From: Thermoflexus hugenholtzii
GTDB taxonomy: Bacteria > Chloroflexota > Anaerolineae > Thermoflexales > Thermoflexaceae
Length of the DNA stretch: 64,000 bases
Assembly (NCBI RefSeq): GCF_018771565.1
Contig: NZ_CP076326.1
Span: 1,302,001 to 1,366,000, forward strand
Reading direction: 5' to 3'
The translations under genes were made by a program, and so were the position numbers. Below the pieces are notes generated by a model that was not told where the DNA came from, searched no databases, and saw only the letters and a list, made by a program, of their open reading frames with translations. This document shows, one piece after another, positions 5,238 through 24,689 of the stretch. The stretch's first letter is position 1. Each line of letters begins with the position of its first letter.

Positions 5238-7733
5238 TCACCGCGCTCCCCACAGGAAGATGGTCCCATCCTCCGCCCCCGAGGCCAGCAACCGTCCGTC
5301 CGGCGAGAACGCCAGGGCGACCACCGCCCCCGCCCCCTCATGTCCCCGCAACGTCCTCAGCGACGTCCCATCGGAGGCGCGGATCAGATGGATCTCGCTC
5401 GCGAAGCTGCCCGCTGCGAGAAGCGCCCCATCCAAAGAGAGCGCCAGGCTCCAAACCGGCCTTTCGGAAATCAGCTTCCGCGGCGGCCCGTCCTCCCGGA
5501 GCGGAAGCTGCCACAACCCGAACTCGGTTCCGACGAACAGCCATCGGCCGTCCGGGCTGAAGGCCATCGTCGCCCGGATCCCCCCTTCCAGCGGAATCCG
5601 GCGGGGGGAAGCGCCGAAGACCGCCAGGGGTTCCAGATGGACCTCCCCGGTGGGCAGCCAGACCGCCAGCCATCGGCCGTCCGGACTGAGGGCGAGATGA
5701 GAGCCCAACCCCGGAACGCGAAAGACGTTCAACGGGCGGCCGGCCTCGTCCCCCACCTTCAGGAAACCGAAGCCCCTTCCCACCGGCGTCCTGCTCCCTG
5801 CGGGGACCGAAAACCGATAAGGTCGAAAGTCGTTGCCCCCGGCGATCACCGATTCCCCATCGGGGGACACCGTCAGATCCGAGCGCCACCATGGATCGCC
5901 TTCAAAGGTGGCGATCCGACGCCCATCCGGGAGGGTCCAGAGGTGGATCTTCCCATCCGCCCCGGCGGAGACCAGCCACTCCCCCTGCGGGTGAAACGCG
6001 ATGGCGGTCACCCAGAGGCGATGGGCGCCCCATGCGGCGATCGGCTGCGTGGAGGAGATCGGCCAGATGCGGAGGGTGCCGTCGCCGAAGCCCGCGGCCA
6101 GCCAGCGCCCCATGGGGTCGAAGGCCAGGGCCTCCGGATGCATCCCGATCGGGAAGCGCGCCTCCTGCCGCAACCGCATCTCCGGCCACGTCCAGAGCCG
6201 CAGGGCGCCGTCCGAAAACGCGGCCAGGAGCCCCTCCGGCGTCCCCTCCACGCTGTCTACCCAGGCGATCGGATCCGCATACAGGACCTGTCCCGCTCCG
6301 TCCGGGAGCGACCATGAGCGGACGGTTCGATCCGTGCCGCCGGAGAGGAGAACACGGCCATCCGGGGAGAAGGCGAGGGCGGTCACCGGGCCCTCGTGGC
6401 CGGCCAGCGAGACCGCCTGCGCCGCCGGCCCCCGCCACAGGAAGATGCGGCCATCGGATCCGCCGGCCGCCACGAAGGAGCCGTCCGGGCTCCAGGCTAC
6501 CGGGACGATCCACTCGCTGCCCGGCTCCAGCCGGCGACGCTCCTCCCCCGTGCGGGGATCCAGAAGGTGGACAGCCCCCGCGCTGGTCCCGGCGGCGAGC
6601 TGCGCCCCATCCGGCGAGAACTGCACGCTGAAGACCCGAATGTTCAAACCAAAGGTCCACTCAGTCGTCGCCTTCTCCCGCTCGATGCGCATCGTGGCCT
6701 TGCGATCCTGGAGAGGAAAGGTCCAGCGGGGCGTGAGCGCCGGGATCTCCCACAGGCCGATCCCCCCGAGCCATCCCGCCGCCAGATGCCGGGAGTCGGG
6801 GGAGAAGGCCAGGCTTTCCACGAAGGGGCCGGGAGCCTGCACGGAACGGACGATGGCCGGCCCGGAGGGCGATCCCAGATAGATCCGCCCCCCCTCGGTC
6901 CCCAGGGCGAACCACCGGCCATCGGGGGAGAAGGCCGCCTCCAGGATCGGATCTCCCCCCGGGATCGCCAGCTCGTGAATCGGCTGAAGGGTCTCCGTAT
7001 CCAGCCATTTCGCCTTATTCCCGAGAGAAAACAGGATCCAGCGCCCATCAGGGGAAAGGGTCGCTCCCGCCGGCACGCCCTCCGCCCCCCAGCGGGCGAG
7101 GGCCTCGATCCGATCCGGGGCGGCCCCCAGGGGCTCCTTCGGGAGGGCGAAGGTCGCGCCCTCCGCAACGGCCTCCGGGGAAGGCGAGGGCGTGGGGAGG
7201 GAAGGCCTCTCCGGGGAAGGCGTGGCGGTTTCGCCGGGGGCAGGCGAACGGATCGGGGCGGGGAGCCGCCCGGCGAACTCCCGCAGGTAGGAGACCGCGA
7301 TGGCCATCCCGGCGCCGAAACCGAGGGCCGGGACGGCCAACAGGATCGTGAGCAGGAAGGCCCATCGGCGTCGTTGCCGCGCCCTTCGGGCCTGTTCCAG
7401 CTCCTCCAGCCAGCGACGCGCCGTGCGATCCCCCCGCTGGAAGTCGGGGCGGCGCGCCACGATGCGGCGCAGCGCCGCATATGCGGCCTCGCGATCGCCG
7501 GATTGAGCGGCGGCCTCCGCCGCGGCCCAGTCCGCCTCCAGGGCCTGCATCTCCTCACAGCGATGGCAGGCCTCGGCCCAGCGGTCGCGGTCCGGGTGCG
7601 CGGGGAAGCGGTCCATCAACCAGGCGTAGAGCTCCCTCGCCTCCGCCCAGAACCCTTCCGCCTCCCAGCGCCGGGCCCGCTCCAGGCTGCGGGCGATCAG
7701 CGCCTCGGCATCCTGCTCCCCATCCTCCGGCAT
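5238..7733 (-). CDS. Membrane-anchored WD40 repeat protein with cytoplasmic helical N-terminus
   Basis: The 831-residue product starts with a helical, TPR-like region (residues 1-115), a basic stop-transfer and a transmembrane helix at about 124-147. A Pro/Ser/Thr-rich linker (160-190) leads into a long series of WD40-type blades marked by repeated FSPDGRWL-like motifs, about a dozen, which would make one or two beta-propellers on the cell surface. Orientation (helical part inside, propeller outside) is inferred from the basic residues before the helix. It lies directly between tadC and the response regulator and shares their operon. A sensory or adhesive scaffold role for the Tad machine is possible; no catalytic motif is seen. 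Confidence 0.8.
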   Translation of the reverse strand: MPEDGEQDAEALIARSLERARRWEAEGFWAEARELYAWLMDRFPAHPDRDRWAEACHRCEEMQALEADWAAAEAAAQSGDREAAYAALRRIVARRPDFQRGDRTARRWLEELEQARRARQRRRWAFLLTILLAVPALGFGAGMAIAVSYLREFAGRLPAPIRSPAPGETATPSPERPSLPTPSPSPEAVAEGATFALPKEPLGAAPDRIEALARWGAEGVPAGATLSPDGRWILFSLGNKAKWLDTETLQPIHELAIPGGDPILEAAFSPDGRWFALGTEGGRIYLGSPSGPAIVRSVQAPGPFVESLAFSPDSRHLAAGWLGGIGLWEIPALTPRWTFPLQDRKATMRIEREKATTEWTFGLNIRVFSVQFSPDGAQLAAGTSAGAVHLLDPRTGEERRRLEPGSEWIVPVAWSPDGSFVAAGGSDGRIFLWRGPAAQAVSLAGHEGPVTALAFSPDGRVLLSGGTDRTVRSWSLPDGAGQVLYADPIAWVDSVEGTPEGLLAAFSDGALRLWTWPEMRLRQEARFPIGMHPEALAFDPMGRWLAAGFGDGTLRIWPISSTQPIAAWGAHRLWVTAIAFHPQGEWLVSAGADGKIHLWTLPDGRRIATFEGDPWWRSDLTVSPDGESVIAGGNDFRPYRFSVPAGSRTPVGRGFGFLKVGDEAGRPLNVFRVPGLGSHLALSPDGRWLAVWLPTGEVHLEPLAVFGASPRRIPLEGGIRATMAFSPDGRWLFVGTEFGLWQLPLREDGPPRKLISERPVWSLALSLDGALLAAGSFASEIHLIRASDGTSLRTLRGHEGAGAVVALAFSPDGRLLASGAEDGTIFLWGAR

Positions 7734-7794: not shown

Positions 7795-8697
7795 TCAGCG
7801 CGGGAAGAGGCCCTGACCGAGCAGCTGAAGCACCATGCCGCCGGCCAGCATGCACATCACCGCCGGGCCGATGATCAGGGCGACCAGCATCGAGGCCACC
7901 GGGCCGACCCGGCCCACCCACTCCCGGGCCTTCTGGATGCGGCGGGCGCGCATATCCGCCGCGATGCGGGTGACCGTGGGGGTGAGCGGCTGGCCGAGGC
8001 GCTCCGCCTGCTGCATGGCCTCCACCCAGATCCGCAAGGCCGGGGCATTGTTGCGCGCGAGCAACCCCCGATACGCCTCCATGCGGGGGAGGCCCATCTC
8101 CAGCTCATGCAGGAAGCGGCGCAGCTCCTCGCCCAGCGGGTTCTGCAGGCGCTCCGTTAGATGGCGCAGGGCGGCCTCGAAGGCCAACCCGGCCTCCAGC
8201 AACACCGCCAGGGTGTCCAGGAAATCCGGAACGGCCCGGTCGATCTGTTGCTGGCGTCGCTCCGCCAGGCGGTTCATCCAGAACGTCGGGGCCAGGAAGC
8301 CTCCGGCTGCGGCCAGGACGGCCACGATCAGCATGCAACCACCGAAGCCCAGCAGGATGTCCATCAAATAGAGGAAAACCCCGAAGGCGGCCCCGGCGAG
8401 GCCTCCCAGCACATGCATCCCGTAGAAAGCCTCCACCGTCAGGCCGTAAGGATAGCCGGCCTGGGCCAGGGTCCGGGCCAGACGCTCCCGCCCCAGCAAG
8501 CCCCAGAAGGCCGGGATCTCCCGAGCCAGCCGGAGCGACCAGCGGTGGATCCGCTCGGAGAGCGAGGAGCGGCTGACGGCCGCCGGATAGGTCTGCTCCA
8601 GGCGCAACCGGGTCTCGGAGGGGAGCGCCCAGTGCCAGACCGCCGCCGCCGTCAGGAACACTGCCACCAGGCCCATACAACTGAAAAGCTCGACCAT
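7795..8697 (-). CDS. tadC: Tad pilus inner-membrane platform protein TadC
   Basis: The 300-residue protein has a type II secretion F (T2SSF) domain: hydrophobic helices near the N-terminus, a pair around residues 95-145, a cytoplasmic helical block beginning DRAVPDFLDTLAVLLEAG, and a final helix near the C-terminus. The ATG at 8697 follows the tadB stop by a few bases with GAAGGGG just upstream. TadB and TadC together form the membrane platform on which the CpaF ATPase acts during pilin polymerisation. Order tadB-tadC is as in other Tad loci. Confidence 0.9.
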   Translation of the reverse strand: MVELFSCMGLVAVFLTAAAVWHWALPSETRLRLEQTYPAAVSRSSLSERIHRWSLRLAREIPAFWGLLGRERLARTLAQAGYPYGLTVEAFYGMHVLGGLAGAAFGVFLYLMDILLGFGGCMLIVAVLAAAGGFLAPTFWMNRLAERRQQQIDRAVPDFLDTLAVLLEAGLAFEAALRHLTERLQNPLGEELRRFLHELEMGLPRMEAYRGLLARNNAPALRIWVEAMQQAERLGQPLTPTVTRIAADMRARRIQKAREWVGRVGPVASMLVALIIGPAVMCMLAGGMVLQLLGQGLFPR

Positions 8698-8702
8698 CCC
8701 CT

Positions 8703-9653
8703 TCACACCTCCACGTGGGTGATGCGGCGGATCAGCAGGAAGCCGCCGATTTGCAAGGCGAGGCTGAAGCCCAGGATGACCCACCCGAGGGGCTGGGTGA
8801 TCAGGGCGTCGATCATGCCGGGCATGAGGGCCCGGAAGAGGATCAGGAAGGCCATGGGGAGGGCGATCACCAGGATGGCGCTGAAACGGGGCTCCTCGGT
8901 GAGGGCCCGGATCTCCCGTTGCATGCTGCGCCGCTCCGCCATGGTGATGGCCAGACGCTGCAGAACCCGGGTCAGGTTCCCCCCGGCCCGCTGCTGGGCC
9001 AGGATCACCGTGATCATCAGCTCCAGGTCCGCGGAAGGATAGAGCCGGTAAAGATGCTCGAGGGCCTCGTGAAGGGGATAACCCAGCAGCAGCTGCTGGT
9101 AGACCTTCCGCAGGCCCCCGGAGGCCGGCGGAGGGAGGCGATCGGCCGCCTCGCCGATGGCCTGGACGATGGTTTGCCCGGCCCCCAGGCCCCGGGCCAG
9201 GGCGTCTGCCACGTCCGGCAGCTGCTCAGCGAAGCGGATGGCCCGTTGCCGCGCCCGGTGGGCGAGATAGCGCCCCGTGGCGAAACGCACCGCGAACAGC
9301 GCCAGGGAGAGGACCAGGAAGAACGACAAATTCAGGAAGAGGGCGTTCAAATAAAGGACCACGAACACCGCGAAGGCCTGCAAGGCCAGGACCTCGTGCG
9401 GGCGCAAGGACAGATCCGCCGCCTCCAGGCGCTGGGCGAGCCGTTGACCGGATGCGCTCGCGTCGAACCGGGCCCCCAGCTCCAGCAGGAAGCTCCGGGC
9501 TTCCGCGGAGCGGATCACCAGCGACCGCGCTCGCTGGCCGATCTCCCGGCGCTCCAGATAGTGGACCAGATGGGCTCCCACCGCCAGCCCGGCCAGGACC
9601 CCGGTGAGGATCAACCCGATCAGGTAGCCGATCCCTTGCATCGCCGACGTCAT
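8703..9653 (-). CDS. tadB: Tad pilus inner-membrane platform protein TadB
   Basis: The 316-residue protein contains a T2SSF domain with the signature FAEQLPDVADALARGLGAGQ and four hydrophobic segments in the arrangement usual for TadB (one N-terminal, two central, one or two C-terminal). The ATG at 9653 overlaps the TGA of the preceding VWA-like gene (ATGA), which fixes the start and suggests coupled translation. It works with TadC as the platform for pilin assembly driven by the double CpaF encoded upstream. Confidence 0.9.
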   Translation of the reverse strand: MTSAMQGIGYLIGLILTGVLAGLAVGAHLVHYLERREIGQRARSLVIRSAEARSFLLELGARFDASASGQRLAQRLEAADLSLRPHEVLALQAFAVFVVLYLNALFLNLSFFLVLSLALFAVRFATGRYLAHRARQRAIRFAEQLPDVADALARGLGAGQTIVQAIGEAADRLPPPASGGLRKVYQQLLLGYPLHEALEHLYRLYPSADLELMITVILAQQRAGGNLTRVLQRLAITMAERRSMQREIRALTEEPRFSAILVIALPMAFLILFRALMPGMIDALITQPLGWVILGFSLALQIGGFLLIRRITHVEV

Positions 9654-11623
9654 GGCCACTGCTCCCGGGAACGTCGAAGGAGAACGCGGATGAGGACGAA
9701 GCCTCCGGCTCCCGCCGCCGCGATCAGGCAGAGCCAGATCGGCGAGAAGCCTCCATCCCCGCCGGCGGCGACGGTCAGGCGCCACTCCCCTCCTTCCACC
9801 GGCGCCCCCTTCTCCTCCCGGGCTCGGATCCGGATCTCCCGGGGCTGGCGGATCCCTTCCCCGGACACCCGGATCTTGCGGCGGACAATCTCCCGGGCGG
9901 GGATGGACAGGGTGGAAGGCGCAACCTGAACCCCGGCCCCCTCCTCAACGATCTCCAGACGCAGCTGGGCCGGCCGATCGAGGGTGGAGGTGATGATCAG
10001 GGTGAGCTCGCCGGGCAGGTTCAGCGCCCGAGGGGAGCGCTCCAGGGCGACGAAGAGGCGGCCCTCCGTCGAAGCGCCCACCTGCAGATCCGCCACCACG
10101 GCTTGAGGATACACCCGGGGTCCCGCCGGCCCGAGGGCCCGCACCTCTCCCAGAGCCAGGAAACGCACCGGCCCGCCTGCGGGCGGACGGAACACCCACT
10201 CCCATCGATCCGCCAGGGCCTCCATCCGCTCCGGGGGCTGATAGCGGGCGTTGCCCACCCGCCATCCCACCCAGCGCCAGCGGACCTCCTCCACGCCCGG
10301 CGGACGGGGGACGGTGACGGTGATGGGCATCCCCGGCGCCGGGGAGGCCGGGGCCTGCGCTTCCAGCGCCGGCAGATCCGCCATCCGGTCCAGCCATACC
10401 GGCTGCTCCCAGACCCCGCCCGCCCAGCTCAGGCGGAAGGCGCCCTCCACCCGCCCGGAGAGGGCTTCGGCGGGGATCAGGCCGCCGGCCCGGCCGTCCC
10501 CTCCCTCGCGATCCGCATCGCCCCCATCGTCGCGCAACGGCGCCCGGATCTCCCCCGCCTGCCATTCCAGGGCCGCGCCGGAGAGCCGCTGGGGGAGCGT
10601 CGTCTCCAGATAGATCGGCGCGCCGGAAGGGGCGAGCAGCCGGCGGGAGGGGCCCGGCTCCGTCAGGAGCAACGGCTCCCTCAGGCTCACCACCACCCCC
10701 AGCCGGGCCTCTTGATCCCCCTCCATCCGGACCCGCCACTCTCCTTCATAGGACCCGAAGGACAGGAGGGTGACGATCTCCAGGCGCTCGGTGCGGACGA
10801 CATCGATGCGCGCCTGGGCGGCCGGGCCGAGCCAGTCCGTGTCTTCGTGAACCAGGGTCACCAGGCGGGCGGAGGGGGTGGGGCGAACCAGGACGAAGGC
10901 CGCCCAGGCGGCGCCGGGGGGCAGGACCAGGCGCTGCTCCAGCCCCGGCGGGAGAGAGATCCAGGTGGTCCAGCGATGGGGAGAGAGGGCGCCCCAGAGG
11001 CGCAGCGCGGCCTCATAGCGCTCCGGGTCCGACAGGCGCGTCGTCGCGGCGCCTCCGGAGGCCTGACCGAGGGTTTGATCCAGGAGGGAAAGGCTCTGCT
11101 CCAGCCCCAGAGCGAAGAGCGGGCGGGCCGGCGGGCCGGCCAGCCGGGCGGCGGCCCCGGCGAGGGCCTCCGCGGCCTTCGGATCCGCCCGGGCCAGGGC
11201 GAGCAGGCCGACGAAAGGGGCGGGCTCCGGAAGCTGGCTCAGGCTTCGCACGCTCAGATCCACCATCCGGGGCCAGTTGGCCTCCCCGCCGTCGAACCCG
11301 CTCAGACGACGGAGGAGGGCGCGGAAGGCCGCCCGATCTTCCGGATCCCTCATCCGCAGCGCGCCGCCCACCATCCGCGGGGAAGGCCCTCCGCGGAGCA
11401 GGAGCAATCGGTCCGTCGGCGCGGCGGTGGCCGCCCACAGCAGGAGCACGTCCGTCATCGCCTGGCCGATGCCGGGGCCCGGCGCGCGGCCGGAGCGGTC
11501 GGCGATCAGCACCAGGTCGATCGCATCGCCCCGGCCCTGGGCCGTCGCCGGGATAGAGGGGACGCCGAGCCAGCCGGAAACGGCGAGAAGGAGAAGCAGT
11601 CGGGAAACCCACGAGCGCGGCAA
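9650..11623 (-). CDS. Surface protein with degenerate von Willebrand A-like region
   Basis: A TTG start at 11623 is preferred because GGAGG lies five bases upstream and the product then opens with a clean signal peptide (PRSWVSRLLLLLAVSGWLG); a GTG at 11641 has no ribosome site. The N-terminal ~200 residues look VWA-like, starting DLVLIADRSGR, but the metal site DxSxS is incomplete. Beta-rich regions of unknown type follow, and the C-terminus ends in one transmembrane helix and a short basic tail. The gene lies between the CpaF fusion and tadB, and overlaps tadB. It may be a pilus-linked adhesin or assembly factor; that is inference. Confidence 0.7.
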   Translation of the reverse strand: MPRSWVSRLLLLLAVSGWLGVPSIPATAQGRGDAIDLVLIADRSGRAPGPGIGQAMTDVLLLWAATAAPTDRLLLLRGGPSPRMVGGALRMRDPEDRAAFRALLRRLSGFDGGEANWPRMVDLSVRSLSQLPEPAPFVGLLALARADPKAAEALAGAAARLAGPPARPLFALGLEQSLSLLDQTLGQASGGAATTRLSDPERYEAALRLWGALSPHRWTTWISLPPGLEQRLVLPPGAAWAAFVLVRPTPSARLVTLVHEDTDWLGPAAQARIDVVRTERLEIVTLLSFGSYEGEWRVRMEGDQEARLGVVVSLREPLLLTEPGPSRRLLAPSGAPIYLETTLPQRLSGAALEWQAGEIRAPLRDDGGDADREGGDGRAGGLIPAEALSGRVEGAFRLSWAGGVWEQPVWLDRMADLPALEAQAPASPAPGMPITVTVPRPPGVEEVRWRWVGWRVGNARYQPPERMEALADRWEWVFRPPAGGPVRFLALGEVRALGPAGPRVYPQAVVADLQVGASTEGRLFVALERSPRALNLPGELTLIITSTLDRPAQLRLEIVEEGAGVQVAPSTLSIPAREIVRRKIRVSGEGIRQPREIRIRAREEKGAPVEGGEWRLTVAAGGDGGFSPIWLCLIAAAGAGGFVLIRVLLRRSREQWP

Positions 11624-11713
11624 GTCTTCCTCCAGGTTCACAGCGAGCTCAAGGGCTTGCGACGGGGATCATCCGGCGCGCCATCCGCAGGGCGATGGGG
11701 AGCAACCACAGGG

Positions 11714-14230
11714 TCACGCGGTCATCTCCTCATCGACCTCCGGCGCCTGGATCCATCGCTCCCCCTCCACCCAGATCTTCGGGTTCGGGTCGAAGAGATC
11801 CGGGGACCAGGAGACCCCGTGCTCCTCAAAGCGCCGCAGGCAGAGGGCCGGCTGATATCCGGTGGCCGCAAAGTAGCCCCGCACCTTCTCCTCATCCTCC
11901 GTCGTCCCCACCGGGCGGAACACATAGATCGGCTCGGTCCGGATCAGCTCCTCCCGCACCCCCACCACCTCGTCGATCCGAATCACCTTGCGGGTGCCGT
12001 CGATCAGGCGGGCGACCTGGACCACCAGGTTGAAGGCGCAGATCAGGCGACGGAGGGCGGCCTCGGGGAGATCCGCCCCCTCCCGGGCCATCCGCAGCAT
12101 GGTCTCCAGCCGGGCGAAGGCGTCCTCCGGGGAATTGGCATGCAGGGTGGTCATCGAGCCCTGGTGGCCGGTGTTGATGGCCTGGATCATGTCCAGGGCC
12201 TCCCCGCCCCGCACCTCCCCGACGATAATCCGATCCGGCCGCATCCGCAGGGCGTTGATCACCAGATCCCGAATGGTGATCTCCCCCTCCCCGAACTCAT
12301 CCGCCGTGCGGGTCTCCAGGCGGACCCAGTGGGGCCGGTTCAGGCGCAGCTCCGCGGTGTCCTCAATGGTGATGAGCCGCTCCTCCTCCGGGATGTAAGA
12401 GGCCAGCAGGTTGAGCAGGGTGGTCTTCCCGCTGCCGGTGCCGCCGATGACCAAGATGTTCAGTCGGGCCTGCACCGCCCGCCGCAGGAAGATGGCCATG
12501 CGGCGCTCCAGGGAGGCCCGCCGGATGAGGTCCTCGGGGTGGATCAGCTCTTTGCGGAAGCGCCGGATGGTGATCACCGGCCCGTTCAGGGAGAGGGGCG
12601 GCAGCACGATGTTGACCCGGCTCCCATCCGGCAGCCGGGCGTCCACCAGAGGGCGCTTCTCGTCGAGGCGCCGGCCGGCGTGGGCGGCCATCACCGCCGC
12701 CATCTCCAGCAGCTGCAGCTCATCCCGGATGTTCAGGCGGTCCGGCGGGACCGGCTGGAGCTGGCCGCGGCGCTCGACGAACACCTGACGCGGGCCGTTG
12801 ATCATGATCTCGGTGACGGCGGGATCCCGCAGCACGTCCGGAGGCAGGCGGCCCTCCAGGGGATCCACGCGCAGGGCCGCTTCGATCCGATCCACCTCCG
12901 CAGGGTCCACCCAGCGGCGCATGCGGGCCAGGCTGCGGGGGCGCACCCCGGTGGGGGTGAAATACCCGTAGGCCCGCCCCATCTCGTCCACCCCCAGCTG
13001 GTAGTAGAGGAAGAGGTCCTTCAAGATCAGCTGGTCTCCCTTGAGGCCCTGCACCTCGGTGATCGCCACCACCTTGCGCTCGCCGCCGGGGAGGCGGGCC
13101 ATCTGAACCACCAGATCGATGGTGGCCAGCTGCTCCCGGATGGCCCGCAGGGAGAGCTGCTGGGCCGCCTCGGCCCACATGACCATGGTCTCCAGCCGGG
13201 AGAAGGCCTCCTGGGGGGAGTTCGCGTGCACGGTGGTCATGGAGCCCTCGTGGCCGGTGTTCATCGCCTGCAGCATGTCCAGGGCCTCCCCGCCCCGCAC
13301 CTCCCCCACCACGATCCGATCCGGACGCATTCGCAGGGAGAGGCGGACCAGATCCCGGATGGTGATCTCCCCTTTGCCTTCGACGTTCGGGGGCCGGGCT
13401 TCCAGGCGCACCACATGGGGGTGCTGTTCGTAAAAGCGCAGCTCGGCGATGTCCTCGATGGTGATCACCCGCTGTTCAGGCGGGATGAAGCCGGCCAGCA
13501 CGTTGAGCAGCGTGGTCTTGCCCGAGCCCGTGCCCCCGGAGACCAGGATGTTGAGGCGGGCTCGCACCGCCGCCTTCAGGAAGGCGGCCATGGTCTCGGT
13601 GAGGGTGCCGTTGGCGATGAGATCCTCCATGGTGAAGGCCCGCTCCCGGAAGCGGCGGATGCTCAGGACGGGGCCGTCGACGGCGATGGGGGGGATGGCG
13701 GCCGCCACCCGGCTGCCGTCCGCCAGCCGGGCGTCCACCCGGGGGTTGCTCTCGTCCAGCCGCCGCCCCAGGGGGGAGAGGATCCGGTCGATGATGTGGA
13801 GCAGGTGCTCGCGGTTCTCGAACTCCACGTCCTCCCGGCGCTCCAGGCGGCCGAAGCGCTCCACGAACACCTCGGCCTGTCCCTCCTCGCCCGGCCGGGC
13901 CCTCCAGTTCACCATGATCTCCGTGATCTGGGGGTCCCGGAGCAGCGGCTCCAGGGGCCCCAGCCCCACCGTTTCGTCCAGGATGAGGTTGACAATCTCG
14001 GACTGCAGGGTGGGGGAGAGGACCTCCCCTTCCTCCCGGATCATCTGGGCGAGCATCGCCTCCAGGCGCGCCCGGAGGATGGGGCGGGGCAGCTGGAGCA
14101 GGGCCCCCAGGTCTCCCTCCTCCATCAGGCGGCGGCGGTAATGCTTCGCCAGCGCCCGCAGGGAGCTGCGCTCCTCCGTCCGCGCCCCATCCCCGCGCCG
14201 GGACGCCTCCAGTCGCTCCAGGATCGCCAT
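11714..14230 (-). CDS. cpaF: Double CpaF/TadA secretion ATPase, two complete modules in one chain
   Basis: The family usually has about 400-500 residues; this one has 838. Module 1 (about 1-430) includes the N-terminal helical domain, Walker [10 protein letters not shown] at 232-240, the acidic box [22 protein letters not shown] near 305-316 and the His-box [14 protein letters not shown]. Module 2 (about 440-838) repeats [10 protein letters not shown], Walker A at 596-604, [22 protein letters not shown] near 667-678 and [14 protein letters not shown]. All ATPase motifs look intact in both halves; only module 1 keeps the full N-terminal helical domain. The frame is open throughout, with GAGGAGG before the ATG. 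It should power pilin polymerisation with TadB/TadC, probably as a ring of fewer, double-sized subunits (inference). Confidence 0.93.
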
Positions 14231-14359
14231 CGTATTCCTCCTCTTCGGAACAGATCACGCGATGAAGCTTTCGAGAGGCCAGCAGGCTTCTTCCCCCGCG
14301 CCAAAAGGACCCCGGAAAAGGAGCCCACACCATCCGTGAAGGGACGCCAGCCTCCCATT

Positions 14360-16414
14360 TCAGCGCGTGACCGTCAAAGAATAAGGGGACGCGCTGAGCC
14401 CACTGTATCGATAGACCAGCACGTAGAACCGGCCGAGATGGGCGGCATCGACCGGATAAACGATCTGCTCATTGACCCCCGCGCCCGTTCGATTGGACCA
14501 GGCCGTCCATCGCACGCCCACATCCGACTCATGCTGAAGATACAGATCCAGATCCACTCCAGATGGCACCTGGAGCGTTAAGGTGATAGGCCCCGTCGTA
14601 TCTATATAAAACTGGAAGAAATCATACTGATCGGCCGGATCATTGGCATACCCCTGAACCGTGGACGGAACCTGGATGCAATTGGCCTGGCTGCGCGTAT
14701 TATTGGGCTCGATTTCGATAGTGACCGGCGGGCAGTAATTCCGCAGGACCAGGGGGAGGGCGATCACGGCGGGGCGAACGCGAACAGTTCCCGTGGCTGC
14801 GCCGATATTCCCCACCGCATCCTCCACCCGGGCGGTGAAGGTGTAGACCAGGGTCTGGGTGAAATAGAAAACCGGCGCGGAGAAGATTCGCGAAACCGCG
14901 ATGGATCCCAGCGGGGATGTGGTGCCGGTCAGAAAATCGGTCCAGCCGGCACATCCATCACATGTGTAGGCAACCGTGTAAGAGACGATCCCGCTGTGGT
15001 TATCGCTGGCCGTCATCGTAACCGGAAACGTGCGATACGCCGTGGACGGAAGATCCAGAGAGACCGAGGGTGGCGTGTTATCCACTTTGAACGGCCCGAT
15101 TTGGGAGGTCGCCGACCGGCGGTTCCCCCATCCATCTTGGGTTCCCAGGGTGACCGTGTAGATCCCGGATCCCACTGGGAAGGTCACAGCCGTGGTGCGG
15201 GTCAGCTGGCTGTCGGAGGCATCTCCGGAAAGCTGCACCTCATACCACACGCCCGCATTGTCGGAGACAGCGGTCCATGTGATGGGGAGACCATCCGGGA
15301 GCCGCGTCCAGGTATCGGTAGGGACACGACTGAACAGCAGGGGGACCTCCGGGGCCCGGGTGTCCACGCCGACGGCCCGGGTCACGGTGGAGGAGTTGCC
15401 CACCCCATCTGTAGCCGTCACCCGCAAGGTGTAGGTGACCCAGTCCCGGTCTGGAGGGAGGCTCCACAAGGCCTGCCAGGTCGAACCATCCCAGATTGCC
15501 AGGGATTCGGTGTCGGTCAGCACGCGGATCTCCTGAACCCCGGAGGCATCCGAAGCGGTTCCCGAGATCACCACCGGGGTCGGGAGCTGAGCCTGGGTGA
15601 AGATCGCCCCGGCGATCGGCGAGATCCATGTGATCGCCGGCCCCCGCCGCTCGATCACCGCTTCGCGGGTGATCCAGGAGGCATTCCCCAGAAAATCCGT
15701 GGCGGTGATCCGCAGCGTTTGGGTGACCCGATCGCTGGCAGGCAGCGGCCAGCTGGCGGCCCAGACCCCGGCAACCGGATCGAAAGCGGCTTCAGTCTCG
15801 GTGGCCGTCAGGACGCGCACGGACCGGACGCCGGAGCCGGGGATGCGGCTGTCCCCCACCTGGGCGGTATCCGTGACGGTTCCGGTCAGCGTCAGCGGCG
15901 AGGGATGGATGGTTGTAATCAGATGGGGAAGGGAGGATTCCAGGGTCACCGTAGGAGGGCTCACATCCGGCAGAACATCCAGCGCGACCTGAGCCAGCCC
16001 CAGCGCGCTGCTTTCCGCGGTGAAGACAACTGTGTAAAGCGCGAGGGGATCCGTCGGTTGGACCGTGTAGGTGAAGGCGAAAACGGCCGGCGACGTTGAG
16101 GCCGTAAAGGAGCGGGGAACGGTCCATTCAAAGGCGGGGCCTGCGGTCAGGGTGAGCATCGGAGTTCCCGAGAGTTCCACAGTGAATGTAAGCAGGCCAG
16201 CCTCGGCGAACCAGATCGCCCGGGTGATCGCGCCGCCGGGCATGGTGTCGGAGATGCGCAACGGCGACGCGGCAGTGGCCGTGATCGCTTCAAACGAGGG
16301 ATCTGCCGGCTGACCGTGGACGGACGCCGAGCCCAGGGCCATCCATCCCAGAAACAGAAGGACCCCCAGGGCCACCAGCCCCAGCAATCGATTCCAACGC
16401 CGAGAGTCGGACAT
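14360..16414 (-). CDS. Secreted Ig-like repeat protein with C-terminal PPC-like domain
   Basis: The 684-residue product has a signal peptide (about residues 10-35), then several beta-sandwich repeats marked by recurring phrases such as LRITATDFLGN, LRVTATDGVGN and DNTPPSVSL, as in bacterial Ig-like surface proteins. A stretch near ALPLVLRNYCPP precedes a final domain with EPNN and DLDLYL, typical of pre-peptidase C-terminal (PPC-like) domains common in Chloroflexota exoproteins. A GAGGAGGTGAGGG ribosome site precedes the ATG. It lies inside the pilus locus between the CpaF fusion and the PP2C gene, so it may be a surface adhesin or pilus-associated factor. Confidence 0.75.
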   Translation of the reverse strand: MSDSRRWNRLLGLVALGVLLFLGWMALGSASVHGQPADPSFEAITATAASPLRISDTMPGGAITRAIWFAEAGLLTFTVELSGTPMLTLTAGPAFEWTVPRSFTASTSPAVFAFTYTVQPTDPLALYTVVFTAESSALGLAQVALDVLPDVSPPTVTLESSLPHLITTIHPSPLTLTGTVTDTAQVGDSRIPGSGVRSVRVLTATETEAAFDPVAGVWAASWPLPASDRVTQTLRITATDFLGNASWITREAVIERRGPAITWISPIAGAIFTQAQLPTPVVISGTASDASGVQEIRVLTDTESLAIWDGSTWQALWSLPPDRDWVTYTLRVTATDGVGNSSTVTRAVGVDTRAPEVPLLFSRVPTDTWTRLPDGLPITWTAVSDNAGVWYEVQLSGDASDSQLTRTTAVTFPVGSGIYTVTLGTQDGWGNRRSATSQIGPFKVDNTPPSVSLDLPSTAYRTFPVTMTASDNHSGIVSYTVAYTCDGCAGWTDFLTGTTSPLGSIAVSRIFSAPVFYFTQTLVYTFTARVEDAVGNIGAATGTVRVRPAVIALPLVLRNYCPPVTIEIEPNNTRSQANCIQVPSTVQGYANDPADQYDFFQFYIDTTGPITLTLQVPSGVDLDLYLQHESDVGVRWTAWSNRTGAGVNEQIVYPVDAAHLGRFYVLVYRYSGLSASPYSLTVTR

Positions 16415-16452: not shown

Positions 16453-17706
16453 TCAAGGGTTTGGTGGCGGAGGAGGATTCGTTGGTGGCGGAGAGCCACC
16501 CGACTCCGGCCCCGGGGATGGGGGCGCCGGGGTGAATGTGGGGGTGGGAGTCGCGGTGGGCGTGGGGGTGGGGCTCGGGCGCGGCGTGGACGTGGGCGTA
16601 TACGTGGAGGTGGGAACCGGGGTGGAGGTCGCCTCTATCTCCCCGGACGCCCGCTCAGGGGTCACCGTTGTGGACTGCCCCGGCAGCAGGATCGGCGTAG
16701 CGGTGCCGCGGGGACGAACGCTCCCACCTTCCTGCTCCGATCCCCCCCGCATCAGCACAGCCCACGCCAGAACCAGCCCCGCCACCACCGCGAGGATGCC
16801 CAGCCCCGCCGGGATGGCCCAGGGCGGCAGCCGGATCCGAAGGGGTGGAGCGACGATCCGCCGCCCCGGCATCTCCATGATCGCCACGGAGATGTTGTCC
16901 GGACCTCCGGCCGCGTTCGCCGCCGCCACCAGGGCTTTCGCCGCCTGCTCGGCGGAGTGGGTCCGCACGATCTCCAGGATCTGCTCGTCAGAGACCACAT
17001 CGTGGAGGCCATCGGTGCACAACAGAACCACATCGCCGGGCTGAAGGCTGATGGGCTGGTAGCGAGGATCGGGGGGGCCTGCTCCGTCTAATGAGGCCAC
17101 CCGCAGATCCACGCTCACCTCGGGCTGGATGCCCACGTAACGCTTGAGGACGTTGCGGTTGGGATGGGTTCGGGCCTCCTCCGGGGTCAGTCGGCCCGCC
17201 TCGATGGCCTCCTGGGCCCAGGTGTGGTCCACGGTGAGCTGGACGATGCGATCGCCCCGGATGAGATAGGCCCGGGAGTCCCCCACGTGGGCCAGGTAGA
17301 GGCGGCCGTCCTCGATCACCGCCAGGGTGACGGTAGTGCCCATGCCTTTCCAGATAGCCTTCTTCTGGCTTTCGGCGAAGACCTCCCGGTTGGCATGAGC
17401 GATGGCTTGCTCCATGGCCTGAGGGAGGGGCGCCGTGGGGTTCTGCTCCAGGAAATGGAGGATGTGCTGGACCGCGAGATTGCTGGCCACCTCCCCGGAG
17501 GCGTGACCGCCGATGCCATCCGCCACCACCGCCACATGACGGGGACGTCCGCCGGGCCCCTGAAGCTCCGCCACCCTCACAGCGTCCTCGTTGTTCTTTC
17601 CGCTCATGCCCGGATGGGTCGCATGAACCAGACGGGGCTCCAGGCGGTTATCCGGGGTCGCGGATCCCCGCGCTTTCGCAGCATCAGCACGAACTCGAAG
17701 GGCCAT
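16453..17706 (-). CDS. Membrane PP2C-type Ser/Thr phosphatase with extracellular Pro/Thr tail
   Basis: Residues 25-280 form a PP2C domain with the metal ligands in NNED (38-41), ADGIGGH (62-68), GDSRAY, TDGLHD (231-236) and GGPDNIS (267-273). A transmembrane helix follows at about 296-318, then a ~95-residue tail of Pro, Thr and Ser that is probably outside the cell. The start has GGAGGTGGGTA in front. The gene directly follows the Ser/Thr kinase gene, and the two proteins share the same layout (catalytic domain inside, helix, PT-rich tail). It should remove phosphates placed by that kinase. Confidence 0.92.
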   Translation of the reverse strand: MALRVRADAAKARGSATPDNRLEPRLVHATHPGMSGKNNEDAVRVAELQGPGGRPRHVAVVADGIGGHASGEVASNLAVQHILHFLEQNPTAPLPQAMEQAIAHANREVFAESQKKAIWKGMGTTVTLAVIEDGRLYLAHVGDSRAYLIRGDRIVQLTVDHTWAQEAIEAGRLTPEEARTHPNRNVLKRYVGIQPEVSVDLRVASLDGAGPPDPRYQPISLQPGDVVLLCTDGLHDVVSDEQILEIVRTHSAEQAAKALVAAANAAGGPDNISVAIMEMPGRRIVAPPLRIRLPPWAIPAGLGILAVVAGLVLAWAVLMRGGSEQEGGSVRPRGTATPILLPGQSTTVTPERASGEIEATSTPVPTSTYTPTSTPRPSPTPTPTATPTPTFTPAPPSPGPESGGSPPPTNPPPPPNP

Positions 17707-17757
17707 TACCCACCTCCTTGCTTCGCTCCCTGTCGGATTTCAACAAGCCCACCCATC

Positions 17758-19011
17758 TCACGATGTGGGGGTTGGGGACGAAGGCGGCGGCATCGGGGTA
17801 GGCGTCGGAGTGCGAGTAGGGACCGGCGTGGAGGTTGGCTCGACGCGCGTCGTTGGGGTCGGGGAGGGCATCGAACCGCCCTGGGGCAAGACTATGGGAG
17901 TGGGGGTGATCCGCACCACCGGCGTTGGGGTAGCTTCCGTCGTGGGAACACCCCGCCCGGTGGAGAGATAGAGCCCCCAGCCTGTTGCTGCCAGGGCCAA
18001 CAGGAAGAACATGAGCAGATTCCGCCCCAAGGAGCGACCGGTTGGAGCCGGAGGCGGTGGGGAGGTCCGTTCCGGCTTGCCGTCCTCTTCCAGAAAGCGC
18101 CGATGCCAGGGCACCGCCTCGTTCAGCCGGCGGGCGACCAGGGAGGCCGTCGGCCGCCGCTCCGGATCCTTCGCCAGCATCTCGAAGATCAGATCGTCCA
18201 GGGGCGCCGGGGTTTCCCGGCGCAGCAGGGAAGGACGGGTGGGCATGCTCTTGCGGATGGCGCTGGTCAGCTGCTCGCGGCTCCGCCCCTCGAAGGGCAA
18301 ACGCCCGGTGACCATGCGATACAGCACCACCCCCAGGGCATAGATATCGGCCGGCCGAGGATCGGGACGGGCGGTGCCGCCCTTCTCCTGTTCGATCTGC
18401 TCCGGGGCCATGTAAAGCAGGGTTCCCGCCTCCAGCCCCCGCGCCCGCTGGCGCTGGGCCAGCCCGAAATCCACCAGCACCGCCTCGATGCCCTCCTGAA
18501 CCGGCCGTCGGAACAGGATGTTGTTGGGCTTGATGTCCCGGTGGGCGATGCCCCGGGCGTGAAGGTATTCCAGGGCCATGGCGACCTGGTAGCCGATCTC
18601 CACCGCCACCTCGATGGGCAGAGGCGAGCGCCGCTTGAGCAGTTCCTCCAGGCTTCCCCCCTCCAGCAGCTCCATCGCGAAATACCACTGTCCCGTCTCG
18701 GGGATGCGTTTGCTGTAAACCGCTCGCGGTCCCTCCTCCAGCGGATACAGCCGGACGATGTGAGGATGGTGAAGCTCGCGGAGGATCTCCACCTCTCCTT
18801 GCAGGGCCTCCTCATAGAAGGCCTGCTCGGCCGCTGTGCGCTCCGTATCCCCTCTTCCCCCCCGAGCCGCCTTTACAGGTCGAGAGACCTTCAGCACTAC
18901 CCGGGCCCCTCGTCGGGTGTCACGGGCGAGATACAGCACTCCCATCCCGCCTTCATGAAGCGGCCGCTCGATCTTAAAAACATCGATCCGTTCGGGAACC
19001 TCGATCGGCAT
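17758..19011 (-). CDS. Membrane Ser/Thr protein kinase (PknB-like)
   Basis: The N-terminal kinase domain shows the Gly-rich loop HEGGMG, the ATP-binding Lys in VVLKVS (K41), catalytic HRDIKPNN (157-164), DFGLAQ (181-186) and MAPEQ (201-205), so it looks active. A linker with PPPPAP leads to a transmembrane helix at about 331-350 and a Pro/Thr-rich exterior tail of about 65 residues; no PASTA repeats are visible. It is encoded between the VWA-FHA protein and the PP2C gene. The FHA proteins next door are the natural candidates for its phosphothreonine readers. Confidence 0.93.
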   Translation of the reverse strand: MPIEVPERIDVFKIERPLHEGGMGVLYLARDTRRGARVVLKVSRPVKAARGGRGDTERTAAEQAFYEEALQGEVEILRELHHPHIVRLYPLEEGPRAVYSKRIPETGQWYFAMELLEGGSLEELLKRRSPLPIEVAVEIGYQVAMALEYLHARGIAHRDIKPNNILFRRPVQEGIEAVLVDFGLAQRQRARGLEAGTLLYMAPEQIEQEKGGTARPDPRPADIYALGVVLYRMVTGRLPFEGRSREQLTSAIRKSMPTRPSLLRRETPAPLDDLIFEMLAKDPERRPTASLVARRLNEAVPWHRRFLEEDGKPERTSPPPPAPTGRSLGRNLLMFFLLALAATGWGLYLSTGRGVPTTEATPTPVVRITPTPIVLPQGGSMPSPTPTTRVEPTSTPVPTRTPTPTPMPPPSSPTPTS

Positions 19012-19051
19012 CTTACGCCTCCGTTAGGGAAAGTGCCGGCTTTTGAAGCCC

Positions 19052-21055
19052 TCACTGATCCGGCTCCTGGAACACTCGGGTCCGATCATCCGCCTCGGAG
19101 AAAGGTCGGGTTTCATCGCTGACTTCTCCCGGCGGAGGCGGGGGCGGCTGGACCGGCTTCTTGGTGGACTGGCCGATCTCCTCCTGATCCAGGCGCAGCC
19201 GGAAGTGCAGCTGCACGCGGCCCAGGTTGATGAGATCCCCATCCTGGAGGCGGGTGCCGTTGATGGGGACCTGCTCGTAGTTCACATAGGTGCCGCTGGT
19301 GCTTCCCTCGTCGTAAATGTAGAAGACCCCTTCCTCCATCTCCTCAATGCGGCAGTGCAGCCGGGAGACGGAGCGATCGTTGAAGACGATGTTGACCAGC
19401 GTCTCGTCCCGGCCCAGGCGAACATGGGTGCTGCGGATGGGGATGGTCCGCCGCTCCGCATCGCCTTCCACCACCACGAGCCAGGCGCGCGCCGGCTCGC
19501 CTCGGGCGGCCCCGGAGGGGAAGAAAGGCTCCGTGACCTCCTTGATGCGCTGCACGATGGGCTGGGTCATGGAGACAGCGGCCTCGCGCAACCGGGGGAC
19601 CCGTGTGAAGGCGATGATGGCGATCAACAGGGAGATCAGAGCCACCATGCACGAGACCAGCGGCAAGAGGTCCAGGATCCCCCGGCCGGCCGGGGTGGGC
19701 GCCACCTGCCGACGGATCAATGGTCCCTCCCCTGTGCTGAACAGACCCTGGCTGTCTTCCACGTCAACCCGCAGCGGATTATCGCCGCCGGGAGCCTGAG
19801 CCAGACTCACAACACCCTCGATCAGGATCTCCGAATCAGTGCGCTGATATGATGTCCTCTCGAAATGCACTGGGCTATCGCCGATCCGGACCTGTCGAAC
19901 GAGGAGATCGCAATTCTTGCATTGGTCGACCCGTCGGATACGTATGGTGATAGGCAAAGAAGGAACTTCGCTGGCCAAGATCGGGGAATCTATCCCTCCG
20001 CGTCCCTCCTCCTGGCCTTCCCACTGAATTTCCACCGCGGGAGGAGCCAGATGAATGGCATAGGACTCCCTCACCTCCATCAACTGCCCCCCGGCGTTCA
20101 GGCGCACACGGATCTCATGAGTGCCTCCCTGGCGAACCCGAGAGCGATAGCGCAAAGCCCAGACTCGTCCCCAGGAGGGAAGAGAACTATAAAACGAAGC
20201 TAGGGCTTCTTGATCCATCCCGTAGAGAAGCACCTGTCCTCCGGTCTGACCCGCAATGCGGCGAAGGTTCTGCATGGCCTGCTCGCTGCCCTTGCCTTGC
20301 GCCGGCCCGATCTGAATCGCATGGACCACAATGCGATGGCCAAACGCTCGATTTGTTACATCCGCCACCTGCTGATCGCTCAGGAAATCGATTCCATCGG
20401 AAAGCACGATCACAAATCCTGGCCGGCCTAAGGCATCTGGACGTTGAGCCAGGATGTCGATGGCCTTGCCCAGCAGATCGAAAAGAGGCGTCGCTTCCTT
20501 CCCCTTAGGCCGTTCCGGAAACTCAAACATCTGCAATCGATTCGAAACCTCGCCGCCATTTTTGGTCAATTCTTTCGGGCCAATGAAATCAATATTGTCT
20601 CCGATTGGGGCGATCAATGCAATCCGAGAGCTCTGATCCTTGGATTTTGCAATCTGACTAACGAACTCCCTGGCCTCCTCAAGCCGGGATTTGCCGGTAT
20701 AGCCGCGGGATCGGGGGCTGAGGATGCTCTGACTGGCATCCAGCAGGATGACGATGTCCGCGCCCTGGGAAACAGACTCCAGGATCTGATCCCCGCTGGG
20801 GATCTCCTGGCTATCCTCCAGCAGAGAATCAACCTTAATGGGTTGATTCGAGGGAAGCCCGGTGGAGAGATCCACCAGCTGGAAGAAAACCGTCACGGTG
20901 GGGAATTGCGTGACATCCACCCCGTATCCACGGACGGCGAGGATCCCTCTTTGGGCGGAGACGGGAGGAGCGAGGAGGATCAGGAACAGCCCCAGGCCGG
21001 CCAGGGCTCCGAGCGAAAGCGCCAGCGCCATCCGCATCCCATGCTTGCCCTTCAT
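19052..21055 (-). CDS. Transmembrane protein with outer VWA domain and inner FHA domain
   Basis: The ATG at 21055 overlaps the preceding stop (ATGA). The 667-residue product has a signal peptide (to about residue 34), a VWA domain with the metal site DASQS at 106-110 and LSDGID near 219, a beta-rich region, a transmembrane helix at about 459-484 and a cytoplasmic FHA domain at about 540-615 with RLGRDE, SRLHCRI and TSGTYVN. The acidic C-terminal tail has two TRPF/TRVF sites (Thr 649 and 659), typical of self- or partner-phosphorylated FHA substrates. It could couple events at the surface to the phosphothreonine circuit of the adjacent kinase and phosphatase. Confidence 0.88.
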   Translation of the reverse strand: MKGKHGMRMALALSLGALAGLGLFLILLAPPVSAQRGILAVRGYGVDVTQFPTVTVFFQLVDLSTGLPSNQPIKVDSLLEDSQEIPSGDQILESVSQGADIVILLDASQSILSPRSRGYTGKSRLEEAREFVSQIAKSKDQSSRIALIAPIGDNIDFIGPKELTKNGGEVSNRLQMFEFPERPKGKEATPLFDLLGKAIDILAQRPDALGRPGFVIVLSDGIDFLSDQQVADVTNRAFGHRIVVHAIQIGPAQGKGSEQAMQNLRRIAGQTGGQVLLYGMDQEALASFYSSLPSWGRVWALRYRSRVRQGGTHEIRVRLNAGGQLMEVRESYAIHLAPPAVEIQWEGQEEGRGGIDSPILASEVPSLPITIRIRRVDQCKNCDLLVRQVRIGDSPVHFERTSYQRTDSEILIEGVVSLAQAPGGDNPLRVDVEDSQGLFSTGEGPLIRRQVAPTPAGRGILDLLPLVSCMVALISLLIAIIAFTRVPRLREAAVSMTQPIVQRIKEVTEPFFPSGAARGEPARAWLVVVEGDAERRTIPIRSTHVRLGRDETLVNIVFNDRSVSRLHCRIEEMEEGVFYIYDEGSTSGTYVNYEQVPINGTRLQDGDLINLGRVQLHFRLRLDQEEIGQSTKKPVQPPPPPPGEVSDETRPFSEADDRTRVFQEPDQ

Positions 21056-22548: not shown

Positions 22549-23910
22549 TCAACCCTGGCGAGACTTCGCGGAGCTGGCAGGGCGCCCCTGCGCCCCCCCT
22601 CCTTCCAGCGGGAACATCTGATTGGCCACCCGGCGGATGGCCTCCAGCAGCCCGGGGCGCCGCAGGACATCCGATGGCGCGCGGTCGTTGGCCATCCACG
22701 GATCCTCCGGGATCCCGGCCACCCAGCTGACCCCCTTCAACAGGCGCTGGATCGTATCCGGTCGGATCTCGCTGCGCCGCACGGCCCGATTCAGCACCAC
22801 CCCGATCTCCCCCGGCACGTGGTGACGGTGAAGCAGATCGATGGCCAGATGGGTCGCGCGCAAGGCCGCCAGGTCCGGCGTAAGCACCAGGACGATCCGA
22901 TCGGCCCGCTGGAGGGCCAGCAGGGTCAGGAAGTCCGCCGCCGGCGGGAGATCCAGGACCACATATCGGTAATACGTGCGCAGGTTGATGAGGAGATGGT
23001 GGAGGGCGGTGGCCAGGGCGTGCTCCACCCGCACGTGCTGGATGCAGCGCCGATTCACGTCCAGCAGGATCTCATCCTCCAGCGGCCGTCCATCCGAGAG
23101 CGCGCGGGCCAGCCGCTCCAAATCCGGGGCATCCTCCGGAGGCAGCCGGCTGAGCAGGAAGAGATCCCGCAGCATGCCCTGATGATCCTCCTCCCGGGGA
23201 GCGGCGAGGATGTCGAAGGAAAGCGATTCCCGGGCGCGGGTGATCAACGCGTCCACGATGGCGGGAGACCAGTGCTGAAAGTCCAGGCTCTCCAGCCAGG
23301 ACCGGGAGGTCGGGTGGCCGGTCAGGGTTTCGGTCATCCCGGCGTGCCAGTTGAGGTCCACGTAAACCACGCGCGCGGGCTCCGGGGTGGTCGCCAGGCG
23401 GTCCGCCAGGCCCAGGGCTAGGGTGGTCTTGCCGACTCCCCCTTTCAAGCTGAAAACCCCGACCACCTGGCCGGTCTCCCGCCGGGCCGCCGACACGCGG
23501 GCTCGCAGCAGATCCCGAACCCGCTCCATCGATTCGATCCAGCCCTGAAAGCGCATGGGCCGGGTCATCCGGAGGACATCATCGGCCCCCGAGGCCATGG
23601 CGCTGCGAAGATAGCGCGGATCATCGAAGAGGGCTTCGCTGACGATGAGGATCACGGCCACATGGGGCATCAGCTGGGAGATCTGCCGGCACGTGCTCAG
23701 CTCCGGAACCCCTCCCGCGTTCTCGGTGATCAGGACGATCTCCGGAGCGGGACGGACATGGGGCAGCAGCTGAAGGGCCTGATCGGGGTTCTGGAACGTG
23801 CGAACCAGATGGACCCTTCCGCTGTTTGTCAGGTACTCCCGGATCCCCTTTTCCCAGTCCGGGTCGCTGGTGATCAGAACAACCGGGATCAGATCCGTTC
23901 GCGGCTCCAT
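22549..23910 (-). CDS. cpaE: CpaE/TadZ pilus localisation ATPase
   Basis: The N-terminal ~135 residues resemble a receiver domain, but the usual phospho-acceptor position (in EIVLITENAGG) has no Asp, as in many TadZ proteins. The C-terminal half is a MinD/ParA-like ATPase with the deviant Walker A KGGVGKTT at 156-163, VYVDLNW near 190 and VVLDLPP further on. Family members place the Tad machine at a particular cell site. The gene sits right after cpaB, and GGGGAGGGG precedes its ATG. Confidence 0.9.
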   Translation of the reverse strand: MEPRTDLIPVVLITSDPDWEKGIREYLTNSGRVHLVRTFQNPDQALQLLPHVRPAPEIVLITENAGGVPELSTCRQISQLMPHVAVILIVSEALFDDPRYLRSAMASGADDVLRMTRPMRFQGWIESMERVRDLLRARVSAARRETGQVVGVFSLKGGVGKTTLALGLADRLATTPEPARVVYVDLNWHAGMTETLTGHPTSRSWLESLDFQHWSPAIVDALITRARESLSFDILAAPREEDHQGMLRDLFLLSRLPPEDAPDLERLARALSDGRPLEDEILLDVNRRCIQHVRVEHALATALHHLLINLRTYYRYVVLDLPPAADFLTLLALQRADRIVLVLTPDLAALRATHLAIDLLHRHHVPGEIGVVLNRAVRRSEIRPDTIQRLLKGVSWVAGIPEDPWMANDRAPSDVLRRPGLLEAIRRVANQMFPLEGGGAQGRPASSAKSRQG

Positions 23911-23954: not shown

Positions 23955-24689
23955 CTATGGTCCGATGGCCCGGCTCCGGTCAATCAGGATGGGCGGCTCC
24001 TCCTTCTCGTCCCCGAACCGACGCAGGACGAACCGGATCTCCTTGGCGAAGTTGCGCATGTAAGTGAGCCGGGCCGCCTCCTCAAGGCTGAGATCCAGGA
24101 TGATCACCATGTCCGGGGCCAGCTGGCCGCTGGGGAGAAGCCGGCCGATGGTGGCGCCGGTCAGCTCTCCCTCCCGCGGGAGCAGGTTGCTCACCGCCAG
24201 TACCCGGATGTTCTGGAGCATCACCACCGTCTGCCCTCCGCCGTCGGCCCCTCCTTCCATGGAGACCAGAACATCCACCCGGTTGCCCGGGCGGATCAGG
24301 CCGGAGAGGCCGGTCTCCGAGTTCACGCTGATGGCCACCGCCCGCCGCCCCGGCTCCAGCCCCAGATTGCGATCCAGCATGCTCCAGGCGAGGACGGAAT
24401 CCTTCGGGATCGGGACCATCACCACCCATCCGTCCAGATCCTCATCCGCCTTCACCAGCCCCTGGAGCCGGTTGAAGTAGTAAACCGGGAGCCGGGTGCG
24501 CCGGAAGTATTCCCCGATGTTGTCCCGACGGAGGACGGTGAACTGAGGGACTTCCTTCTGGGCCACCAGCACCTCCAGCTGCTCCCCCGTCACCTGCGCG
24601 GCCTGCTGCACGATCCCAAAGCCGATCCCCACCGTCACCAGCCCGACCACCAGCGCCGCCCCCGTCAAAATCCAGGCCGTCCGCCGCAT
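23955..24689 (-). CDS. cpaB: CpaB/RcpC pilus assembly protein with SAF domain
   Basis: The 244-residue protein has one N-terminal membrane helix (about residues 6-28) followed by an SAF-type domain (VLVAQKEVPQFTVL) and the RcpC region (RPGNRVDVLVS). A GGGAGGGGAG ribosome site lies before the ATG. In diderms CpaB works with the secretin; here no secretin gene (cpaC/rcpA) is visible, which agrees with a single-membrane cell. It is the first gene of the Tad operon, and a candidate promoter lies about 70 bases upstream. Confidence 0.9.
   Translation of the reverse strand: MRRTAWILTGAALVVGLVTVGIGFGIVQQAAQVTGEQLEVLVAQKEVPQFTVLRRDNIGEYFRRTRLPVYYFNRLQGLVKADEDLDGWVVMVPIPKDSVLAWSMLDRNLGLEPGRRAVAISVNSETGLSGLIRPGNRVDVLVSMEGGADGGGQTVVMLQNIRVLAVSNLLPREGELTGATIGRLLPSGQLAPDMVIILDLSLEEAARLTYMRNFAKEIRFVLRRFGDEKEEPPILIDRSRAIGP

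Follow-up and report, generated by a model that had tools for sequence, protein, structure and literature searches.

A tandem CpaF ATPase gene in Chloroflexota Tad loci and a proposed alternating motor ring

The Tad locus of Thermoflexus hugenholtzii

We examined a 64,000-nucleotide stretch of the Thermoflexus hugenholtzii genome (NZ_CP076326.1, positions 1,302,001 to 1,366,000), hereafter the window, and identified a Tad cluster on its minus strand that includes a tandem cpaF gene (Table 1). The cluster runs in the order CpaB, a CpaE-like protein, a kinase-FHA protein, a vWA-FHA protein, a Ser/Thr kinase, a PP2C phosphatase, an Ig-like surface protein and the tandem cpaF, after which it continues with a large vWA-like protein, TadB, TadC, a WD40 protein and a two-component pair. 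TadE-like (PF07811, 5.6e-05) and TadG-like (PF13400, 9.2e-07) genes lie just below the window. The large vWA-like protein had no match in Pfam, and weakly matching counterparts of it are present in most tandem loci. A second Tad locus in the same genome carries a single CpaF of the ordinary kind (468 aa). No Rfam match was obtained for positions 1-32000 of the window.

Other genes of the neighbourhood were also recorded. The Ser/Thr kinases, the PP2C phosphatase and the FHA and vWA-FHA proteins lie within the Tad cluster at 16453-22545 (-), which suggests phospho-control of the pilus. The WD40 repeat protein downstream of TadC has 831 aa (5238-7733, -). Two paralogous pilin-like ORFs were detected at L135:6507-7673 (-) and 9258-10277 (-), encoding 388 and 339 aa, the second of which overlaps positions 1-276 of the window. 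Both open with MMRRWIRGSKGLQTLEWVA (G/LQTLE start), a prepilin-type site with Glu at +5, and their C-terminal parts are long, dissimilar and without a Pfam match. Past the TadG-like gene, near the far end of the cluster, a TnpB-like transposon protein was recognised by eye (L135:3042-4502, -). On the opposite strand, an open frame of 1492 aa with low-complexity composition (10103-14581, +) overlaps the tandem cpaF and vWA-like genes in antisense; it almost certainly results from the high G+C content.

Table 1 Features of the tandem cpaF gene and its Tad locus (positions in the window; residues of the 838-aa protein)
Feature	Position	Strand	Basis
Tandem cpaF gene, two CpaF modules, 838 aa	11714..14230	-	ORF, ATG start, Pfam, PDB sequence search
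Three-helix bundle, single, N-terminal, ahead of module 1 only (residues 16-87)	13970..14185	-	AlphaFold2 helices 16-38, 49-66, 73-87; CpaF homology
Module 1 (residues 88-436): NTD2 and ATPase domain	12923..13969	-	Pfam, genome search, model
Walker A, module 1 (residues 232-240, GGTGSGKTT)	13511..13537	-	
Pore loop, module 1 (residues 278-290), canonical NVEG	13361..13399	-	Aligned to C. crescentus 325-337
Junction (residues 437-465): module 1 tail to module 2 NTD2, without three-helix bundle	12836..12922	-	Constant 45-50 aa between fixed motifs, all tandem genes
Module 2 (residues 466-838): NTD2, ATPase domain and C-terminal extension	11717..12835	-	Pfam, genome search, model
Walker A, module 2 (residues 596-604, GGTGSGKTT)	12419..12445	-	
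Pore loop, module 2 (residues 640-652), altered DEFG	12275..12313	-	N329D and E331F, C. crescentus numbering
Large vWA-like protein between tandem cpaF and tadB	9650..11641	-	Weak matches in relatives L113, L116, L112, L143, L013
TadB platform protein	8703..9785	-	PF00482; tandem-locus clade 100/100
TadC platform protein	7795..8784	-	PF00482; tandem-locus clade 100/100
CpaE/TadZ-like ParA-type ATPase	22549..23910	-	AAA_31 and ParA-type matches
CpaB/RcpC	23955..24689	-	PF16976 E=1e-18

Two CpaF modules in one polypeptide

The tandem gene is a single frame without internal stop. A sequence-only reading had placed two full sets of CpaF motifs in it, and this was borne out: Walker A lies exactly at residues 232-240 and 596-604, and the Asp box, Walker B, His box and trans Arg finger each occur twice. 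The T2SSE profile (PF00437) matched two stretches of the protein; in a search of the whole one-contig genome, with a cut-off of 24.9, the modules taken one by one scored 196 and 188 bits. The two halves share 54% protein identity, and direct repeats between them are still visible at the DNA level (300, 157 and 62 nt, with 74-81% identity and a spacing of 1086-1092 nt).

An AlphaFold2 model, with 13 tandem sequences as input (mean pLDDT 82.6, pTM 0.65), predicted one N-terminal three-helix bundle followed by two NTD-ATPase units. The later modules of the other tandem genes likewise have no three-helix bundle. The junction of 45-50 residues between fixed motifs is nearly constant across tandem genes, and most of these residues belong to the domains themselves.

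The best match in a PDB sequence search was CpaF of Caulobacter (E=4e-103), ahead of other secretion ATPases by 60 orders of magnitude, and Foldseek of the first structural model confirmed CpaF and gave nothing further. As in CpaF/TadA, the motor of the Tad (type IVc) pilus (Caulobacter crescentus, PDB 8RJF, 8RKD and 9E24), both stretches and the model combine T2SSE with NTD2 and a RecA-like ATPase domain, both modules carry Walker A, Asp box, Walker B, His box and Arg fingers, and the gene sits with those for CpaB, CpaE, TadB, TadC, TadE and TadG. It differs from the known protein, in which each polypeptide has one module with its own three-helix bundle, in that tandem forms have two or three modules and one bundle per chain, and in the altered predicted platform surface of module 2. 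Since two modules share one bundle in a single chain, we class the protein as a CpaF variant and not as an ordinary CpaF. A survey of 292 CpaFs described three architectural classes, the tandem form not among them (PMC12019362), and our literature search found no published description of a tandem CpaF.

The top NCBIfam match was TIGR03819, whose 610 bits are the sum over the halves, with either half alone below the cut-off of 373. Identity as VirB11 was rejected, as TIGR02788 exceeds its cut-off only by adding the two halves, the neighbours are Tad genes and the best PDB matches are CpaF.

Occurrence in Chloroflexota

We identified 15 tandem cpaF genes in 14 genomes from eight family-level Chloroflexota groups, together with a frameshifted sixteenth. 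All of them lie in Tad loci, except where the contig is too short to show the context. One of the 15, the second AL-N1 copy (L010/L114), is truncated at the end of its contig. A single CpaF is encoded in all nine Thermoflexus genomes, three of which carry the tandem gene in addition. Tandem genes were detected in 7/396 genomes in the class sample of Thermoflexus, 5/158 in the class of G331 and 2/2 in the class of G002, counts that are lower bounds because scoring in the larger samples was limited to 2-6 candidates per genome. One scan of genome contigs also missed several Chloroflexota members that turned up later. With these lower bounds, the rarity that had been presumed from the sequence is right within Chloroflexota. 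Full-length tandem genes were not found on viral contigs, and the best plasmid matches were single CpaF genes; neither result excludes their presence there.

The gene at L011:1110-4658 (+) (L011/L112) encodes three complete modules in 1187 aa. At L013:1290-4819 there are apparently three modules as well, broken by frameshifts, and the three-module forms span 1183-1187 aa. The L013 contig is labelled Gracilibacteria, yet it has 63% G+C, is Chloroflexota-like and looks misbinned; contamination of metagenome-assembled genomes may put a few contigs under a wrong label. In G427, a separate third cpaF-like gene (L110:5927-7024, -; 365 aa, T2SSE 2e-46) without three-helix bundle and pore loop follows the tandem gene; such an adjacent gene was seen in no other genome.

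An assembly chimera or collapse that joined two cpaF genes has a negligible probability. The Thermoflexus genome is one contig, the same fusion recurs in independent assemblies from many genera, its junction is of nearly equal length across them, and the module clades are congruent. As the same architecture appears in independent assemblies, misassembly is therefore excluded.

Origin of the fusion

A tree was built of 52 modules, comprising 15 first modules, 16 later modules and 21 single CpaFs. First modules (98/92), later modules (99/96) and single CpaFs (100/99) each form their own clade, so that a single old duplication-fusion followed by co-inheritance suffices for all tandem genes. The groupings inside the two module clades mostly correspond (Thermoflexus with G674, G664 with G612, G427 with G430), and the third module of L011 branches within the module 2 clade.

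TadB and TadC of tandem loci also fall into clades of their own, separate from their counterparts in single-CpaF loci (100/100 each). The tandem loci are thus a distinct Chloroflexota Tad subsystem and not a recent accident. These relationships bear on whether the tandem chain co-assembles into mixed rings with the single CpaF of the second locus, or with the product of the third gene in G427. The occurrence of a single CpaF in every Thermoflexus genome and the adjacency of that third gene would both allow such rings; however, the single CpaF goes with its own TadB and TadC, in a different clade, and the adjacent gene was seen only in G427. We consider mixed rings very unlikely.

Catalytic residues and selection in both halves

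In Caulobacter numbering, K287, T288, E312, R347, E357 and R359 are kept in every module, and H382 in all modules except one cut by a contig end. R217, the NTD Arg finger, is retained everywhere except in modules 2 and 3 of the triple, which are 65% identical to each other, and in the cut AL-N1 gene. The complete double genes therefore have an intact catalytic set, R217 included, in both halves. Pairwise dN/dS was 0.04-0.11 for both halves, which are under purifying selection. A dead second half was rejected on these two grounds.

A milder form of this idea gives module 2 a structural or regulatory role with little ATP hydrolysis. The faster evolution of the Thermoflexus module 2 (branch of 0.89 vs 0.36 in the module tree) and the losses of R217 listed above agree with it, but all complete double genes keep the catalytic set in module 2 and dN/dS is low, and we regard this reading as distinctly improbable.

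Changes at the predicted platform surface of module 2

In the published model, CpaF contacts its platform through alpha5 (189-200), loop 8 (201-212) and the pore loop (325-337) (PMC12019362), segments taken from an AlphaFold3 prediction for Caulobacter. Arg198 is present in 43/43 single CpaFs and in 15/15 first modules, and in none of the 16 later modules. In the pore loop, Asn329 is replaced by Asp in 14/16 later modules, and Glu331 by Phe, Tyr or Asp in 14/16. Module 2 of G002 and of G509 retained both pore-loop residues and lost R198 alone.

The platform-contact idea had been set down before positions were counted. Among positions conserved in single CpaFs and invariant in module 1, module 2 was changed at 4/15 inside the contact segments vs 1/85 outside them (p=0.0016, a value that concerns positions and not independent events, since the rows share ancestry). 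An earlier and looser test on 11 genes, in which module 1 did not have to be conserved, gave no significant enrichment (p=0.45), and a second earlier test of the contact segments on 11 genes gave p=0.04.

The halves of the complete double genes thus differ at the predicted platform surface and not in their catalytic sites. The sequence-only reading had proposed specialised sites in differing halves; divergence of the halves is supported at the predicted platform contacts, but specialisation of the catalytic sites is not, as these are intact in both. TadB and TadC were compared for a partner of the altered module 2; both diverge alike and no partner was assignable.

A changed surface might also mean that the halves split the work in time, with one module acting mainly in extension and the other in retraction, in place of a single bidirectional CpaF. 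CpaF drives both movements in Caulobacter (PMC11300603, PMC12019362), and PilT has been modelled to bind its platform differently, which would suit the altered surface of module 2. However, the ATPase domain of module 2 is CpaF-like and not PilT-like, and the genome holds no sign of one half working alone, so this division of labour seems unlikely.

A proposed alternating ring

The known CpaF is a hexamer; in a published model, each CpaF is paired with one subunit of a platform built as a C3 trimer of CpaG-CpaH heterodimers (PMC12019362), and an in-situ study docks the same stoichiometry of CpaF and platform (PMC13170226). Within the hexamer, each subunit packs its NTD2 against the ATPase domain of the following subunit (PMC11300603).

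Against this background, we put at about even chances that the motor ATPase of the distinct Chloroflexota Tad subsystem is a covalent CpaF dimer, three chains of which form an alternating (A-B)3 ring on a (TadB-TadC)3 platform. Three tandem chains would give a ring of six modules that matches the predicted platform, so that, of the two platform proteins, one would always meet module 1 and the other module 2, and the fusion would fix the register of the ring. ATP would be hydrolysed at all six sites in turn, which would power the extraction of pilins and the growth or retraction of the filament. Because opposite seats differ in kind, a C2 rotary step would pair the firing of an A site with that of a B site. 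In the three-module form (L011), two chains would close the ring; the module numbers 1, 2 and 3 each divide 6. Further points in favour of this reading are the separate clades of modules and of platform proteins, the intact catalytic residues and low dN/dS of both halves, the changes in the platform segments of module 2 and the tight junction of nearly constant length. A more specific version, in which a heteromeric ring with A/B (or A/B/C) register set by the fusion is matched seat by seat to alternating TadB and TadC, with catalysis shared and platform contacts divided, is offered tentatively, at somewhat under even chances.

A ring of three polypeptides had already been guessed from the sequence, and it is a reasonable inference: the differing halves and the uncommon, conserved fusion fit it, and the module number of the three-module relative also divides six. 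C3 rings with alternating open and closed interfaces have a parallel in the 'ocococ' homohexamers of PilT/PilU (PDB 6OJY, 6OK2 and 9N32, by their titles), although there the alternation is one of conformation among identical subunits, whereas in tandem CpaF it would be encoded in the gene.

The main structural rival is a stack of two tiers, with a hexamer of module 2 on top of a hexamer of module 1. AAA+ proteins with tandem ATPase domains (p97, NSF, ClpB), which are also ring machines with two ATPase domains per chain, commonly stack in this way as D1 and D2 rings, though they belong to another branch of P-loop ATPases. A stack would require three tiers in the triple-module relative and would have to be spanned by the short junction. 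It would also let the pore loop of one tier only reach the platform, yet the pore loop of module 2 is conserved and altered. We therefore hold stacking to be improbable, and the single ring of alternating modules is the reading we prefer.

Implications

For type IV pili and the secretion machines related to them, a central open question is how a motor ring of six-fold symmetry drives a platform of three-fold symmetry. With adjacent subunits tied together and diverged, seat-specific mutations become possible: all A or all B sites could be knocked out, and pilus growth and retraction followed. The linked, diverged copies may thus allow a test of the role of each ring seat, and the double and triple forms offer a natural test of ring stoichiometry. 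Coming from a thermophile, the tandem protein is suited to structural work.
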